Below, piece after piece: positions 50,207-55,696 of a stretch of 64,000 bases of DNA. This stretch comes from Geomonas paludis (GTDB lineage Bacteria; Desulfobacterota; Desulfuromonadia; Geobacterales; Geobacteraceae), in the NCBI RefSeq assembly GCF_014193585.1, contig NZ_BLXY01000001.1:106033-170032 (forward strand). The letters are read 5' to 3'. Positions within the stretch are counted from its first letter, which is position 1; every line of letters begins with the position of its first letter. A program made the translations under genes and the position numbers. The notes beneath the pieces were generated by a model. It had not been told where the DNA came from. It searched no databases and saw only the letters and a list, made by a program, of their open reading frames with translations.

Positions 50207-50491
50207 ATGAGAAGAGCCATTGCAGCCGCCGTCCTGACCCTTTTCTGTGCCGGACTGGCCTATGCCGCTGACGAAACCGTGGTGGTGCTCCCGGCCAAGA
50301 ACGGCAACGTGACCTTCCCGCACAAGAAGCACAAGGACATGACGGAGATGAAGTGCACCAACTGCCACGAAACCGACAAGGGAGGCAAGATCGCCGATCT
50401 TGGCAAGGACTGGGCCCACAAGACCTGCAAGGGGTGCCACACCGACAAGGGCAAAGGCCCCACCAAGTGCAACGAATGTCATAAGAAGTAG
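50207..50491 (+). CDS. Periplasmic triheme cytochrome c7 (PpcA family)
   Basis: A 94-residue exported cytochrome with three CXXCH hemes (CTNCH, CKGCH, CNECH) and the paired His axial ligands of the c7 fold (FPHKKHKDM). Signal peptide ends at LAYAA. AAAGGAG precedes ATG 50207. It shuttles electrons between inner-membrane quinol oxidases and outer-membrane conduits. Its middle segment (ETDKGGKIADLGKDW) differs from the second copy at 55331, so the two are diverged paralogs. Confidence 0.92.
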   Translation: MRRAIAAAVLTLFCAGLAYAADETVVVLPAKNGNVTFPHKKHKDMTEMKCTNCHETDKGGKIADLGKDWAHKTCKGCHTDKGKGPTKCNECHKK

Positions 50492-50593
50492 CACTCTTTC
50501 CCGCCCGATCAGCACCCCGGCGGGGGCCACGGCCTCCGCCTTTTTCATGCCACACCTTCCCCCAAAAAATCAATTAGAAGCCCGCCCCAAACA

Positions 50594-50621
50594 TTGACAT
50601 TCTTTAATTTCCCGAGATAAT
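50594..50621 (+). promoter_or_regulatory. Promoter of the radical SAM operon
   Basis: A perfect TTGACA (50594-50599), a 16-bp spacer and GATAAT (50616-50621). The leader to the first gene is about 130 nt, with no riboswitch that I recognise. Confidence 0.65.
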
Positions 50622-50757
50622 GAAATCGCGCGCCCGGCCCCGCTCATCATGTGTCGGCGGACAACTCCTCGCCCTGACATGGCTCTGCAGTAACGAAGCG
50701 GCACGCACCGGGCAGCCAAGCACTCACATTAAAGGTTGAGGCAGAGGAGATTCACTC

Positions 50758-51186
50758 ATGAGGGACCCTTTCCACGACCTGCATCACCACGAATCCGTCA
50801 GCACCTCCCATATCAGGCTCATCTCCGAAGGGGGAAGCGCGCACCCGAGGAGCCCGGAGCTGGTCTGCATCGACTCCATCCAGGCCACCCAGTGCTGCAC
50901 AACGGAAGCACAGCACACGGTGTACCCGTCCGCCGGCGCGCCGGGCCAGGTGCTGCCGGAAAGCCCGGTCTGCACCCTTCCGGCGGAGTATGCCGAGGAG
51001 CTCGACCGCGCGGTCCTCCCCTCGTTGCTGCTGCAACGCCTGCAGCTGTTGCAGCTCCCTTTGGGGCCGGCAGCCGCGGTCCTGGTCAGGGACCACGGCA
51101 GGCTATGGCAGGTCGGCGATGAAACCTGCTCCTACTCGGTCAGATTGCTAGGGGGCCGCATCGCGATCTACGCTGAGCAGCGGTGA
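50758..51186 (+). CDS. Hypothetical protein, putative partner/substrate 1 of the radical SAM enzyme
   Basis: A 142-residue protein of no family known to me. It is paralogous to the next gene: SHIRLISEGG near the N-terminus, LPAEYAEELD in the middle, and a C-terminal block GRLWQVGDETCSYSVRLLGG...YAEQR. It has a His-rich start (DLHHHES) and several Cys (VCID, TQCC, VCTL, ETCS). No signal peptide. GGAG lies 8 nt before the ATG. First gene of the radical SAM operon. Confidence 0.75.
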   Translation: MRDPFHDLHHHESVSTSHIRLISEGGSAHPRSPELVCIDSIQATQCCTTEAQHTVYPSAGAPGQVLPESPVCTLPAEYAEELDRAVLPSLLLQRLQLLQLPLGPAAAVLVRDHGRLWQVGDETCSYSVRLLGGRIAIYAEQR

Positions 51187-51273
51187 ACCCGGTCACAAAG
51201 AATCGCCTGATTACCGGTAGCGGTGGCAGCAGCTCCGCATGCGCCGGATGTTATCCAGTGAAAGGAGAGAGCG

Positions 51274-51696
51274 ATGGCCGAGGAAAAGATTGAGGGGGAC
51301 AACGGTGGCAGCAGGCACCTGAAACTCGTGTCCGAAGGGGATGGTGACCCGGCAGCCCGACGCGCACAATCCTGGTCGCCGGACCAGATCGTCGCCAGTT
51401 GCATCACCTCCCAGCAGATGGAGAACTTCAGGGCCTACAACAACGTCTGCATGACCCTGCCCACCAACGACATGTACGCATTTTCACTGCCGCTGGAGCA
51501 CGCCGGAGAACTGGACCAAGGGGAGATCCCGCAGGCGGTGCGGCAGCAGTTCGACTCCCACGGCTCGGCCCTCTCCCCGACCGCCAGGATCACCGTGCAG
51601 CAGTCCGGGAGAGTCTGGTTCATCATCGATCTGGACCGGAAATATTCGGTCCGGATGGTGCCGACAGGTTTGCTGGTCTACAGCGAAAGGTTGTGA
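51274..51696 (+). CDS. Hypothetical protein, putative partner/substrate 2 of the radical SAM enzyme
   Basis: A 140-residue paralog of the preceding protein. Shared blocks are RHLKLVSEGDGD, LPLEHAGELD and the C-terminal GRVWFIIDLDRKYSVRMVPTG...YSERL. Unlike copy 1 it has few Cys (SCITS, VCMTL). The repeated C-terminal YSVR motif may be a recognition element for the SPASM enzyme, as leader or carrier domains are in other radical SAM systems; that is inference. AAAGGAGAG precedes the ATG. Confidence 0.75.
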   Translation: MAEEKIEGDNGGSRHLKLVSEGDGDPAARRAQSWSPDQIVASCITSQQMENFRAYNNVCMTLPTNDMYAFSLPLEHAGELDQGEIPQAVRQQFDSHGSALSPTARITVQQSGRVWFIIDLDRKYSVRMVPTGLLVYSERL

Positions 51697-51721
51697 CCAG
51701 CGCCCCAGCCGGAGAACGGTC

Positions 51722-53119
51722 ATGAGCAACTTCCATACCTTCGACCAGGGAGGGCAGCACTTCCTGTTTTTCAGCCGTTCCGCCAGGCTGTACCAGGTCA
51801 GCCCGCTGGCGGTTCGGCTGCTGCAGGAGTTTATTCCTGCCAGGCCCGGTGCGGAACTGCCGGTCCCGGAAACGGCGCCGCAACAGCAGCTTGGTCCTGA
51901 GGAGACCGCGCTCTACGGCGAACTGATCGACCTCTTCAACCGGGAGCGCGCCGTCCCGCTCCCCGCCCCCTACCAGCAGGAGAACCCCACCGGCGGGAAC
52001 AGCTACCAGACCTTTTCCATCTACCTCGCCCAGACCTGCAACATGGCGTGCTGTTACTGCTGGAACCGTGGCGGCACCTTCGGCAAGCCCGGGCACGTCA
52101 TGGGGTGGCGAACCGCCCGCCGCGCCACCGAACTCATCGTTTCACTGGTGGAGCGCTCCAGCGCGGAAAAGATCTTCATAAACTTCTACGGCGGCGAGCC
52201 TCTGCTCGATTTTCCGGTTTTGCAGCAGATCACCCGGGAACTACTCAAACACGAGGCCCGCCTGGGCAAAAATTTCTTCCTGACCCTGGATACCAACGGC
52301 ACCCTGCTGCAAGGACATGCCGCGCAGTTCCTGGCCCGCTACTTCACCCAGGTCGGGGTCAGCCTGGACGGCAGCCAGCGCATCCACGACCTGCAGCGCC
52401 CCGGGAAGTACGGCGAGGAAACCTGGCAGCAGATCGTCACCAACATCAGGACCTTCCCCAACCAGAAAGTACTCGGCATCCGGGCGACGCTGACGACCTT
52501 TTCCGACAGCTACCTGGAGACCTTCCGCCACCTCACCACCCTGGGCGTGGGCCGGATACAGCTCGAGTACTGCCACGAACCGGGATACCACCAAAACCCC
52601 ATCTACGAAAAGCTGATCGTGCCCCCGCAGCGGCAGCTGGCCGAACTCCAGGAGTTCGTGGATTACTACATCGAATACATCGCCAGCTACAAGTGCACCC
52701 GCGACATTCCCTTCGTCTCAAACCTTTTGGACAGCATCAACAGGATCAGGCGCGCCAGCCGCTTCACCCGCCCCTGCGGAGCCGGCACCAACACCCTGGC
52801 CATCAACAGCCACGGCGAGGTCTTTCCCTGCATCGCATTCGTGGAACGTGCCGACTTCATCATGGGGCGCACCGCAGATGCCCCCCTGTCCCTGCACCAT
52901 GCCCTGGAGGGATTCGAGGTGGACAGCCAGTTCCCCTGCCATGACTGCTGGTTGCGCTACGACTGCGCCGGTGGCTGCTACGCCACCCATTACGACATGA
53001 CGGGGCACGCCCGGCAGCCGCACCCGGAATACTGTCGAAACATGCAGGGGCGCGCCGAGGTCTTTTTCTACGCTCTCACGCAGATGCTCACCAAGTGTCC
53101 GTGGCACCTGGACCGGTAG
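51722..53119 (+). CDS. Radical SAM/SPASM peptide-modifying enzyme
   Basis: A 465-residue enzyme. The N-terminal 90 residues resemble a peptide-recognition region (RLYQVSPLAVRLLQEF). The radical SAM cluster is CNMACCYC (C106, C110, C113), with the NFYGGEPLLDF loop after it. The C-terminal SPASM domain has CGAGTNTLAINSHGEVFPC and CHDCWLRYDCAGGC...YC, which would bind two auxiliary [4Fe-4S] clusters. SPASM enzymes modify ribosomal peptides or proteins (thioethers, quinone cofactors). It lies 25 bp after the second small protein. I recall Geobacter peptide-maturase families (geopeptide, GeoRSP) but cannot assign this one to them. Confidence 0.9.
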   Translation: MSNFHTFDQGGQHFLFFSRSARLYQVSPLAVRLLQEFIPARPGAELPVPETAPQQQLGPEETALYGELIDLFNRERAVPLPAPYQQENPTGGNSYQTFSIYLAQTCNMACCYCWNRGGTFGKPGHVMGWRTARRATELIVSLVERSSAEKIFINFYGGEPLLDFPVLQQITRELLKHEARLGKNFFLTLDTNGTLLQGHAAQFLARYFTQVGVSLDGSQRIHDLQRPGKYGEETWQQIVTNIRTFPNQKVLGIRATLTTFSDSYLETFRHLTTLGVGRIQLEYCHEPGYHQNPIYEKLIVPPQRQLAELQEFVDYYIEYIASYKCTRDIPFVSNLLDSINRIRRASRFTRPCGAGTNTLAINSHGEVFPCIAFVERADFIMGRTADAPLSLHHALEGFEVDSQFPCHDCWLRYDCAGGCYATHYDMTGHARQPHPEYCRNMQGRAEVFFYALTQMLTKCPWHLDR

Positions 53120-53131
53120 ATTGCGGAACTG

Positions 53132-53806
53132 TTACCGCCCGCCGGGGGTCACGTACCAGAAGATGGCCAGGAAATGGAAGGCACTGCCGACCAGCACGAA
53201 AACGTGCCAGATGGCGTGGTTGTAAGGAAGGCGGTCCCAGAGGTAGAAGAGGACGCCGAGGGTGTAGGCTGCGCCGCCGGCAAAGAGCAGCAGTAGCCCG
53301 TTGAGCGCGAGGGATGCGGCCAGCGGCTTGATGACCACCAGCACCAGCCAGCCAAGTCCCAGGTAGAGTGCAGGCCCGAGGTAGGGAAGCCGGTGCGTGG
53401 TGTAGAGCTTCATGAAGGCGCCGACGGTGCCCAACCCCCATACCGTGATCAGCAGCCAGTACCCCCACGCCCCGCGCAGGGTCACCATGGCAAAGGGGGT
53501 GTAGGTGCCGGCGATCATGAAATAGACGCAGGCGTGGTCGAGGATACGGAACAGGTAGCGCACGCGCGGCCTTCTCACGCTGTGGTAGATGGTGGAGACG
53601 GCGTAGAAGAGCAGCATGGCGCCGGCATAGACGGAGGCGGAGACGATGCGTGCCATCTCGCCGATGCGAAGTGCCAGGCTGATCAGGGCAGCCGCCCCTG
53701 CCGCGCTGAGCATGAGCCCCACGCCGTGGGTCCAACGGTTGGCCAGCTCTTCCGCCTCGCTGTAATGAAACAGCCGCTTACTGAGATCGTCGTCATCCAT
53801 GGCCAT
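53132..53806 (-). CDS. HlyIII / PAQR-family membrane protein
   Basis: A 224-residue seven-helix membrane protein of the hemolysin III/PAQR family. Metal-ligand pattern: STIYHS in helix 2, RILDHACVYFMIAGTYTPF, and a C-terminal NHAIWHVFVLVGSAFHF with the two His. ATG 53806 has GGAGG just upstream. Convergent with the radical SAM gene (12 bp gap). Activity in bacteria is unclear; the hydrolase fold suggests lipid amide hydrolysis. Confidence 0.9.
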   Translation of the reverse strand: MAMDDDDLSKRLFHYSEAEELANRWTHGVGLMLSAAGAAALISLALRIGEMARIVSASVYAGAMLLFYAVSTIYHSVRRPRVRYLFRILDHACVYFMIAGTYTPFAMVTLRGAWGYWLLITVWGLGTVGAFMKLYTTHRLPYLGPALYLGLGWLVLVVIKPLAASLALNGLLLLFAGGAAYTLGVLFYLWDRLPYNHAIWHVFVLVGSAFHFLAIFWYVTPGGR

Positions 53807-53959: not shown

Positions 53960-55057
53960 TTGGCCAGGAAGATTTTCGTCGCGGCTTCGGGTCAGAACAT
54001 CGGTAAGACGACCATCAGCGTTTCACTGCTGCACCTCGCCCAGAAGAAATACGGGCGGGTCGGGTTCATGAAGCCCCTGGGGCCCAAACCCACCGTGCTG
54101 CGCGGTATCCACGTCGACAAAGACGCCGCCCTGATGGCCCAGGTATTCGACCTCACCAAGGACCTGCGCTACATGTCGCCGGTCGTGGTGTACCCGGAGA
54201 CCTCGCGGCAGGCGATCGACGGCAAGCTGAACCTCCCCGAACTGGCTGACCGCATCATGACCAGCTTTGCCGAACTGGAGAAGCACTACGACTTCATCAT
54301 CATCGAGGGATCGGGTCATCCCGGTGTCGGATCGGTGCTGAATCTGTCCAACGCGCGGATAGCGAAGATGCTGGGCGCTCCGGTCCTGATGCTGAGCGGA
54401 GGAGGCGTGGGGAACGTCATCGACACGCTGGCCATGAACAGTGCCCTGTTCAAGCTGGAGGGGGCAGACGTGCGCGGTGTCCTGGTGAACAAGCTTTTTA
54501 CCGAAAAGCGTGACACCATGCTGGACTACCTGACCCGCGCCTTCGCGGCACAGCCCTTCTCGGTCCTGGGCGGCTTCGACTACAAGCCGGTGCTGGCCAA
54601 TCCATCGCTGGGGAGGGTGGCGCGTCTGCTCGACCTCCCCTTGCACGGCAACCGCCGCGAGGTGAAGCGCATCATCCACCACGTGCAGATAGGGGCGGCA
54701 TCAACGCAGCGGGTCACGGAAATGCTGCGGGACTCCACGCTTTTGCTGGTGACCAGCAGCCGTGACGAATTGCTGGTCACCCTGGCCAACCTGTACCAGA
54801 TGCCCGAGTTCCATCAGCAGATCGCCGGTTTGGTCATCTCGGGCCAGGCGCCGGTCAGCGGCATCACCCAGCGCATCATCGACCGCAGCAACATCCCCTA
54901 TTTCCGCACCAACCAGACCACCACCGACCTCTACAAGCTCATCACCGAGGACGTTTCCAAGCTGACCGCGAAGGACACGGAGAAACTCGCGCTGATCCGG
55001 TCTCTGGCGGAGGAGCGGCTTAATTTTGACGCCATTGACGATCTGTTCGCGCAGTAG
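53960..55057 (+). CDS. AAA_26-DRTGG protein (phosphotransacetylase N-terminal-like)
   Basis: A 365-residue protein with a P-loop AAA_26 domain (about 1-215; AASGQNIGKTTIS, IIIEGSGHPGVGS) resembling dethiobiotin synthetase, and a DRTGG domain (about 225-330). This pair forms the regulatory N-terminus of long phosphate acetyltransferases, but the catalytic PTA domain is absent. The start is TTG with GGAGG about 5 nt upstream. Likely a nucleotide-responsive regulator of central metabolism. A family A repeat begins inside its TAG stop codon. Confidence 0.85.
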   Translation: MARKIFVAASGQNIGKTTISVSLLHLAQKKYGRVGFMKPLGPKPTVLRGIHVDKDAALMAQVFDLTKDLRYMSPVVVYPETSRQAIDGKLNLPELADRIMTSFAELEKHYDFIIIEGSGHPGVGSVLNLSNARIAKMLGAPVLMLSGGGVGNVIDTLAMNSALFKLEGADVRGVLVNKLFTEKRDTMLDYLTRAFAAQPFSVLGGFDYKPVLANPSLGRVARLLDLPLHGNRREVKRIIHHVQIGAASTQRVTEMLRDSTLLLVTSSRDELLVTLANLYQMPEFHQQIAGLVISGQAPVSGITQRIIDRSNIPYFRTNQTTTDLYKLITEDVSKLTAKDTEKLALIRSLAEERLNFDAIDDLFAQ

Positions 55058-55330: not shown

Positions 55331-55603
55331 CTACTTCTGGTGGCACTCCGAGCACTTGGTCGGGCCGGCACCCTTGTCGCTGTGGCACCCTTTGCAGGTC
55401 TTGTGCGCCCAGTCCTTGCCGAACCCTTCGATCTTGCCCGGTCCCTTCTCGTGGCACGCCTTACAGTCCTTCAACGCCTCCTGGTGCTTCTTGTGGTTGA
55501 AGGTGATGTTGCCGTTTTTGGCAGGAAGGGTGATCACGTCGGCGGCGAAGGCCGCTCCTGCACCGAAAATGACGAGGGCCGCCGCTGCGACTACCTTTTT
55601 CAT
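55331..55603 (-). CDS. ppcA: Periplasmic triheme cytochrome c7 (PpcA)
   Basis: A 90-residue exported cytochrome with three CXXCH hemes (CKACH, CKGCH, CSECH). The segment CHEKGPGKIEGFGKDWAH closely matches PpcA of G. sulfurreducens as I remember it. Signal peptide ends AAFAA. AAAAGGAG precedes ATG 55603. It is a major periplasmic electron shuttle in this order. It is divergent from a membrane-bound XRE regulator, with palindromic sites between the two genes. Confidence 0.92.
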   Translation of the reverse strand: MKKVVAAAALVIFGAGAAFAADVITLPAKNGNITFNHKKHQEALKDCKACHEKGPGKIEGFGKDWAHKTCKGCHSDKGAGPTKCSECHQK

Positions 55604-55696
55604 GGTCTGCTCCTTTTCTTGCGCGTTTTTTGTTGCCGAACTGTGGTAAAAATAGCATCTGGTCTGCAGCCCCGGTATCGACATCTATAGCAATTC

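Follow-up and report, generated by a model that had tools for sequence, protein, structure and literature searches.

What does a radical S-adenosylmethionine (SAM) enzyme act on when its only close companions are two small proteins of no catalogued family? This question is raised by a 64,000-nucleotide stretch of the Geomonas paludis genome (assembly GCF_014193585.1, contig NZ_BLXY01000001.1, forward-strand positions 106,033 to 170,032; hereafter the window), in which positions 50594-53119 hold a unit of three consecutive plus-strand genes that we term A, B, and E. A and B encode the small proteins, while E encodes a radical SAM/SPASM enzyme (Table 1). On balance, we favor a reading in which E acts on both A and B as alternative substrates of protein size, probably cross-linked by thioethers at Cys-x-Thr pairs, and in which a leader in each would dock on an RRE domain of the enzyme.

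A and B are paralogs. Within its own genome, B matches A at E = 3.2e-10. In blastp searches of the open reading frames (ORFs) of 19 loci, window A matches 13 B orthologs (E 3e-15 to 1e-11, 28-33% identity) and window B matches 15 A orthologs (E 3.5e-22 to 5.9e-7, 28-37% identity), in both cases over nearly the whole length, a similarity beyond chance. The two groups split with full support in an unrooted tree, where the single copy of genome G016 lies on the A side on a long branch (G and L numbers denote our genomes and loci). An earlier note on this DNA had described two paralogs of roughly 140 residues that share three motif blocks and fit no family. Their lengths of 142 and 140 residues and the blocks, which are present in the window pair, agree with this description, and neither window protein reaches a Pfam or NCBIfam family. 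Further, the 28 A and B members give no NCBIfam match at E ≤ 1, no Nif11-type match in either database, and two Pfam matches, one member each, at E 0.11 and 0.18, which we take as chance. A joint A+B profile finds no match among solved structures (best E 0.38).

The small proteins and the enzyme occur together. Both E (E ≤ 1e-30) and A are found in the same 15 of the 19 genomes examined for the genus, and B in 13 of those, whereas none of the three was found in the other four (G004, G007, G015, and G018, the last being 85% complete). A adjoins E in all 15 genomes with E, and B does so in 13 of them. Every full-length A or B match in these searches sits at the operon: there were none in 122 non-genus genomes searched in the order or in 258 genomes of the class, and among 345 sampled genomes of the phylum only the own genome gave one (the three sets overlap; the best 14 candidates per genome were scored in the class and the best 11 in the phylum). 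Thus, each genome in which a full-length A or B turned up also has E, and the wide spread of partnerless small proteins that the earlier note had named as a counterargument is not what we observe. Outside the genus, matches to the C-terminal module or to part of the profile occur in G030, G060, G496, and G590. Four other SPASM enzymes also reach E ≤ 1e-30, namely a second enzyme of G016 (31% identity) and single ones of G058, G060, and G075 (26-29%), and the A+B profile found no A- or B-like gene beside them. When 4,691 ORFs from 92 loci (L071-L074, L121-L128, L136-L215) were searched with this profile, it matched the genus loci L136 and L137, modules in large proteins (L121-L123), and an ORF of L124 that presumably lies antisense to holA; three further matches had E 0.14-0.56 (L126, L127, L208).

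The enzyme has the features expected of a peptide-modifying member of its class. E scores 54.1 bits with Pfam Radical_SAM PF04055 (cut-off 29.5) and 49.8 bits with SPASM model TIGR04085 (cut-off 27); only Pfam SPASM PF13186 stays under its cut-off (17.5 vs 21.5). The full set of cluster cysteines that had been claimed is there: the CX3CX2C motif and seven SPASM cysteines are invariant over 14 intact aligned orthologs, and the SPASM cysteines are kept in at least 90% of the 32 rows of a broader alignment. The AlphaFold2 model of E (32 rows) has a mean predicted local distance difference test score (pLDDT) of 88 and a predicted template modeling score (pTM) of 0.88, and it predicts an N-terminal RRE, a leader-binding domain, with the expected layout. 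The best solved full-length matches of the model are PDB 5why and 5wgg (TM-scores 0.77-0.85; for 5why_B, 0.77 by query and 0.85 by target, E 8e-27). Additionally, the E profile aligns with 5wgg over residues 3 to 448 at E 1.1e-45, residue 3 pairing with residue 6. We take both entries to be CteB, which would fit the Grove 2017 structure named in a review.

Among the matches listed (25 of 69 families), E reaches no NCBIfam equivalog cut-off. Its top models are the nif11 maturase (192.8 bits), PapB (191.5), the SCIFF maturase (170.7), and QhpD (165.1), and because it lies below the curated cut-offs we do not file it as a CteB, QhpD, PapB, nif11, or geopeptide maturase. In a tree of 32 enzymes (three from the genus and 29 others picked from 84 loci with an E-profile match), the genus enzymes form their own clade (100/100) on a stem of 1.2 changes per column. 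Their nearest neighbor is a Sulfuricella enzyme, at an unstarred node with support 86/84. As a separate observation among the profile matches, a small ORF with GPCGG repeats directly precedes a 1,228-residue frame with an E-profile match in Desulfobacterales bacterium HSG2 (L184:259-4287), and L156 holds a similar frame of 1,253 residues.

How might E recognize A and B? In the AlphaFold2 model of A, residues 1-70 are of low confidence (block pLDDT 47-64) and contain neither helix nor strand; the N-terminal half is thus predicted to be unstructured to about residue 70. The N-terminal halves of A and B have the motif H-[IVL]-[RK]-L-[IV]-S-E-G in common, our candidate for the element bound by the RRE, and a Cys-bearing segment follows that we propose as the core. 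C37 and C47 of A are present in all 14 rows scored, and the G016 row, outside that count, has both; C43, T45, C59, and T61 of B are present in 13/13 orthologs. Between leader motif and module, only C47 and T49 (A numbering) are invariant across the 28 A and B proteins. We searched the 19 genomes with a 23-base degenerate pattern written from the motif, so that matches in A and B arise by construction. It gave 28 matches, 26 of them in A or B genes, and missed two of the 28 such genes (A of G017 and B of G010). The two extra matches lie inside a 486-residue ORF of G016, presumably MoeA, and just upstream of a kinase-like ORF in G006, while the four genomes without E and a reversed control gave none. 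Hence, no further E substrate with this leader is seen.

The constraint profile places selection on the same half of the proteins. Ratios of nonsynonymous to synonymous polymorphism (pN/pS) were taken from 13 A and 12 B rows, G014 and G016 being dropped. In A they are 0.14 for residues 1-15, 0.094 for the leader (16-27), 0.31 for 28-35, 0.21 for the core (36-55), 0.62 for the linker (56-70), and 0.49 for the module. The corresponding values in B are 0.56 for residues 1-13, 0.17 for the leader (14-23), 0.32 for 24-33, 0.042 for the core (34-66), 0.12 for the linker (67-72), and 0.24 for the module. Invariant columns follow this pattern: the A core has 12/20 and the A leader 9/12 against 14/72 in the module (p = 0.001 and p = 0.0003, G016 dropped from the core comparison), and the B core has 28/33 against 35/68 (p = 0.001, 13 rows). 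The reverse would be expected of a protein that acts chiefly through a folded module. The middles that the earlier note called variable do vary between the paralogs, but within the B orthologs the core is the most conserved part.

These data bear on the idea that A and B have an accessory role for E, as chaperones or as trans-acting recognition proteins, while the true substrate is encoded elsewhere. The confidently predicted domain of A would suit such a task, and modules related to it in large unrelated proteins could make it a plain binding part. However, the Cys-bearing half is more constrained than this module, E is predicted to have an RRE-like domain of its own already, and the leader pattern appears in no other small gene of the 19 genomes, in a search that would miss a substrate with another leader. 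We consider an accessory role quite improbable. The two-substrate alternative of the earlier note is best supported: the genes co-occur in conserved synteny, A and B have a leader-like motif in common, and the constraint profile and the RRE-like domain of E point the same way. A and B are very probably substrates of E.

The other alternative raised there, that of a substrate paired with a carrier, both being required, would fit adjacent paralogs with different cores, but it fares badly in the two genomes without B. G016 has no B, while A and E are open. In G008, where both are likewise open, the 106-bp gap between A and E (L067:6886-6991) retains the last five B codons, the stop codon, and the trailer, and this scar agrees at 30/34 bases with the end of B and its trailer in G005 (E 4e-9). 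B was therefore deleted from G008 while A and E were kept. Hence, B is not essential to the unit, which argues against an obligate substrate-carrier pair; we give that pairing hardly any credence. In G014, it is the E frame that is interrupted, its start and remainder lying in different frames (L069:7284-8706), and this may be either biological or a sequencing error.

Which residues would be modified? If A and B are substrates of E, the modification is likely to fall on the invariant Cys. We propose the Thr two positions on as the acceptor because it is the only candidate invariant in both A and B, and because Cys32-Thr34 is one of two assignments for the CteA thioether: the available part of a review (PMC8326336) gives Cys32-Thr34 (Hudson 2019) or Cys32-Thr37 (Grove 2017). 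A C-x-T thioether specifically is a tentative assignment that we hold to be possible rather than probable. E might instead carry out other core chemistry, such as a C-C or C-N cross-link or an epimerization, through conserved aromatic and Asn residues of B. Residues 51-66 of B (NFRAYNNVCMTLPTND) are indeed invariant in 13/13 orthologs, well beyond Cys and Thr, and some SPASM enzymes form C-C bonds according to the same part of that review. Yet the nearest fold of E is that of a thioether former, and only Cys and Thr are invariant across the A and B cores, so that other core chemistry appears improbable to us.

The substrate reading suggests the following order of events. A and B would be expressed from a conserved near-consensus promoter, and their strand-like H-[IVL]-[RK]-L-[IV]-S-E-G motif would dock on the N-terminal RRE of E, as described for CteB, whose RRE takes up the leader as a strand (PMC8326336, available part). 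The next segment (A 36-55, B 34-66) would then enter the radical SAM active site, where a 5'-deoxyadenosyl radical would remove a hydrogen from the acceptor residue. The Cys thiolate, perhaps held by an auxiliary cluster, would close the thioether from sulfur to carbon between the invariant Cys and the Thr two residues on, once in A and twice in B. The folded C-terminal module would remain unmodified and either retain the product inside the cell, as a mature protein, or guide it to a partner. The thioether and the role of the module are the most speculative parts of this scheme. A further step, which we regard as rather unlikely, would make A and B mature intracellular cross-linked proteins with a mid-protein core, as opposed to peptides that are released; small Cys-x-Thr rings would sit in a disordered tail that stays attached to a dedicated folded domain. 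The nearly fixed 33-residue two-site core of B might then serve as a functional element derived from the protein itself, perhaps as a redox or metal site.

Several points weigh against the substrate reading. No peptidase or exporter gene is present among A, B, E, or the scanned neighbors (cytochrome c7, HlyIII); the product may therefore stay a whole intracellular protein. The 15/15 count is not made of independent cases because one operon was inherited vertically. The AlphaFold alignment of A is shallow, with 28 rows, and low confidence does not prove that a region is disordered. Moreover, the segment borders were chosen by the analyst after the alignment had been seen. The B leader, with 5/10 invariant columns vs 35/68 in the module, shows no difference (p = 1.0), although its pN/pS is nonetheless below that of the module, and the B linker has a lower pN/pS than the B leader. 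Other conserved Cys-acceptor pairs exist, such as C37-x-D39 of A, and window A also has a PapB-type CX3E (C46-x3-E50), though C46 is found in only 3/14 rows.

By analogy, the unit would work like CteB/CteA and QhpD/QhpC. The SCIFF ranthipeptide pair CteB/CteA (TIGR03974; PDB 5wgg, 5why) offers the closest model: in its predicted fold E has the same full-length RRE-radical SAM-SPASM arrangement, an N-terminal leader is proposed for A and B, and their cores, like that of CteA, contain Cys and Thr. In contrast, E scores 170.7 bits against a TIGR03974 cut-off of 425, two paralogous substrates are proposed for it, and the genes adjoining it are A and B rather than a short six-Cys SCIFF precursor. 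CteA itself is a peptide with six Cys in 45 residues (PMC8326336, available part), whereas A and B have about 140 residues and a folded C-terminal module.

QhpD/QhpC (TIGR03906) resembles the unit in another way, since a SPASM enzyme is encoded alongside a protein-sized, leader-bearing substrate. A and B might accordingly be QhpC-like, the cross-linked segment becoming, within a working enzyme, a protein-bound element with a redox or structural role that is formed through Cys-to-Asp/Glu thioethers; candidate pairs would be C37-x-D39 and C47-x-x-E50 in A and C59...D66 in B. E matches the QhpD model over residues 3-463, and in the taxonomic order of the host QhpD-like relatives are encoded beside a presumed QhpC-like ORF (L072, L073). 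The substrate of QhpD is a protein-sized subunit that has a leader of 28 residues and receives three Cys-Asp/Glu bonds (PMC7876137, available part). However, the 165.1 bits of E are far below the QhpD cut-off of 453, E does not form one clade with L071-L073, the unit contains no other Qhp-like gene, and A and B do not have any invariant Cys-to-Asp/Glu pair in common. We judge a QhpC-like nature unlikely. The ORFs directly beside the QhpD-like enzymes of G058 and G060 (L072:8796-9131 and L073:3876-4205), which we take to be the QhpC-like gamma-subunit, are not matched by the A/B profile, and the L072 enzyme itself scores 352 bits with TIGR03906, again below the cut-off.

The remaining relatives are more distant. 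The PapB model (NF047865, 330 positions) aligns from position 4 to position 330 with E residues 97-433, and window A shares one CX3E with PapA; however, E reaches 191.5 of 340 bits, and A and B are without repeated CX3D/E. The nif11-like peptide maturase TIGR04064 gives E its best NCBIfam score, 192.8 bits against a cut-off of 518.7. The geopeptide maturase (TIGR04280) is likewise a SPASM maturase family, but E scores 102.8 against a cut-off of 400; one relative, L164 (573.9 bits), falls into another, starred clade of the enzyme tree. Proteusin precursors, like A, combine a folded with a disordered region; their folded part lies in the leader before the core, whereas that of A is predicted after it (PMC10858898, available part). 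In the parts of these sources at hand, the SCIFF, PapA, and QhpC types are described with layouts that differ from leader, core, and folded domain, and proteusins differ in the order.

The module that completes this layout is predicted with confidence in A, the block-mean pLDDT being 93-97 for residues 71-140. Its fold has no match at E ≤ 0.001 in PDB or BFVD; the best Foldseek matches, profilins over 37 columns at E 0.06 or worse, are treated as no match. A 1,388-residue protein of G030 (L105:3473-7639), which has no Pfam family, contains the module in five stretches (-2 to 27 bits, A/B-only profile). Single module matches occur in large frames of G109 and G055 (E 3e-5 and 0.007, A+B-only profile; profile A4, which also matches them, had been built with two G030 rows included), and likewise in large frames of G496 and G590 (search matches only). 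The large G055 protein looks Tc-A-like because of its Pfam VRP1 match. The module is therefore not specific to radical SAM systems.

The claim of a possible new maturation system thus holds in part: the enzyme class is known, while the proposed substrate family lies outside Pfam and NCBIfam and E forms its own clade. Among the matches listed in our literature search, we found no paper that combines Geomonas with radical SAM, and no title or abstract start describes the operon. If the substrate reading is true, radical SAM maturation systems would gain a substrate family absent from both databases, an enzyme clade that reaches no NCBIfam equivalog cut-off, and the unusual layout of leader, core, and folded domain. 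Two natural substrates with different cores and a shared Cys-x-Thr would form a built-in test of recognition by E. The hosts of the B core, a possible functional element, are iron-reducing soil bacteria, and the conservation of the promoter throughout the genus hints that the product has an everyday role and is not made as an occasional antibiotic.

Table 1. Features of the A-B-E unit (window coordinates).
Feature	Position	Strand	Remarks
Terminator-like hairpin after upstream cytochrome c7 gene	50519..50540	+	consensus match only
Promoter TTGACA-N16-GATAAT	50594..50621	+	consensus match 11/12 bases; conserved in 15 operon genomes
Gene A, 142-residue small protein, proposed substrate 1	50758..51186	+	
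A residues 18-26, HIRLISEGG, proposed leader motif for RRE	50809..50835	+	shared with B; pattern search
A residues 36-55, proposed core, C37-x-D39 and C47-x-T49	50863..50922	+	
A residues 71-142, folded C-terminal module, beta-alpha-alpha-beta4	50968..51183	+	AlphaFold2 prediction
Gene B, 140-residue paralog of A, proposed substrate 2	51274..51696	+	
B residues 15-22, HLKLVSEG, proposed leader motif	51316..51339	+	shared with A; pattern search
B residues 34-66, proposed core, C43-x-T45 and C59-x-T61	51373..51471	+	pN/pS 0.042
B residues 73-140, C-terminal module	51490..51693	+	by alignment with A module only
Gene E, 465-residue radical SAM/SPASM enzyme	51722..53119	+	
E N-terminal RRE-like domain, residues 1-90, three strands followed by two helices	51722..51991	+	predicted fold
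E radical SAM cluster motif CX3CX2C (C106, C110, C113)	52037..52060	+	invariant 14/14
E seven SPASM Cys (C352, C370, C406, C409, C415, C419, C438)	52775..53035	+	invariant 14/14

The strong promoter described earlier is likewise present (Table 1). A search of 50450-53250 found one site vs 0.5 expected from shuffles, and in all 15 operon genomes the best site in the 230 bp before A is the aligned position, its first base lying 134-174 bp ahead of the A start codon. The consensus match is 11/12 bases in 13 genomes, 10/12 in one, and 9/12 in one. Within the spacer, TAATTT (window 50605-50610) is kept in 14/15 genomes, with one change in G016, and its flanks are not kept; it is possibly a regulator site. 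The approximately 136-nt 5' leader contains no Rfam element at gathering score (scan of 50450-53300). Four terminator-like hairpins were found in the region vs 2.4 expected, and the one listed in Table 1 would separate the cytochrome c7 gene from the operon. Antisense and alternative ORFs overlap all three genes, yet we rejected chance ORFs in view of their conservation: pN/pS of A and B is below 1 in every segment tested, and the cluster motifs of E are kept.

The upstream neighbor of the operon is a cytochrome c7 gene (NF043011, 131.8 bits, cut-off 120), and downstream an HlyIII-family gene lies on the opposite strand. Gene order and chromosomal slot are conserved in 15/15 operon genomes: cytochrome c7 with a DinG/rad3-like helicase gene marks one side and a gene resembling the N-terminal part of phosphate acetyltransferase the other, and the HlyIII gene is likewise present in 12/15. 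An origin from a mobile element or phage was rejected on account of this fixed slot and of the absence of relatives in viral contigs or plasmids; 16 pattern matches for A relatives (A1) in viral contigs included none that was confirmed, and plasmids, where A was not searched, held no B relatives. G007 and G015, which are without the operon, carry in this slot, between c7 and HlyIII, a long ORF (L221:7105-9111 and L222:7157-9103) that reads like a PAS-type histidine kinase. A second ORF reading like cytochrome c7 is located at 55331-55684 on the minus strand, about 5 kb from the operon-side copy. The phosphate acetyltransferase-like protein at 53960-55057 stands alone and resembles only the N-terminal part of that enzyme (117 bits, below cut-off); each of five relatives checked has two to four copies of it.

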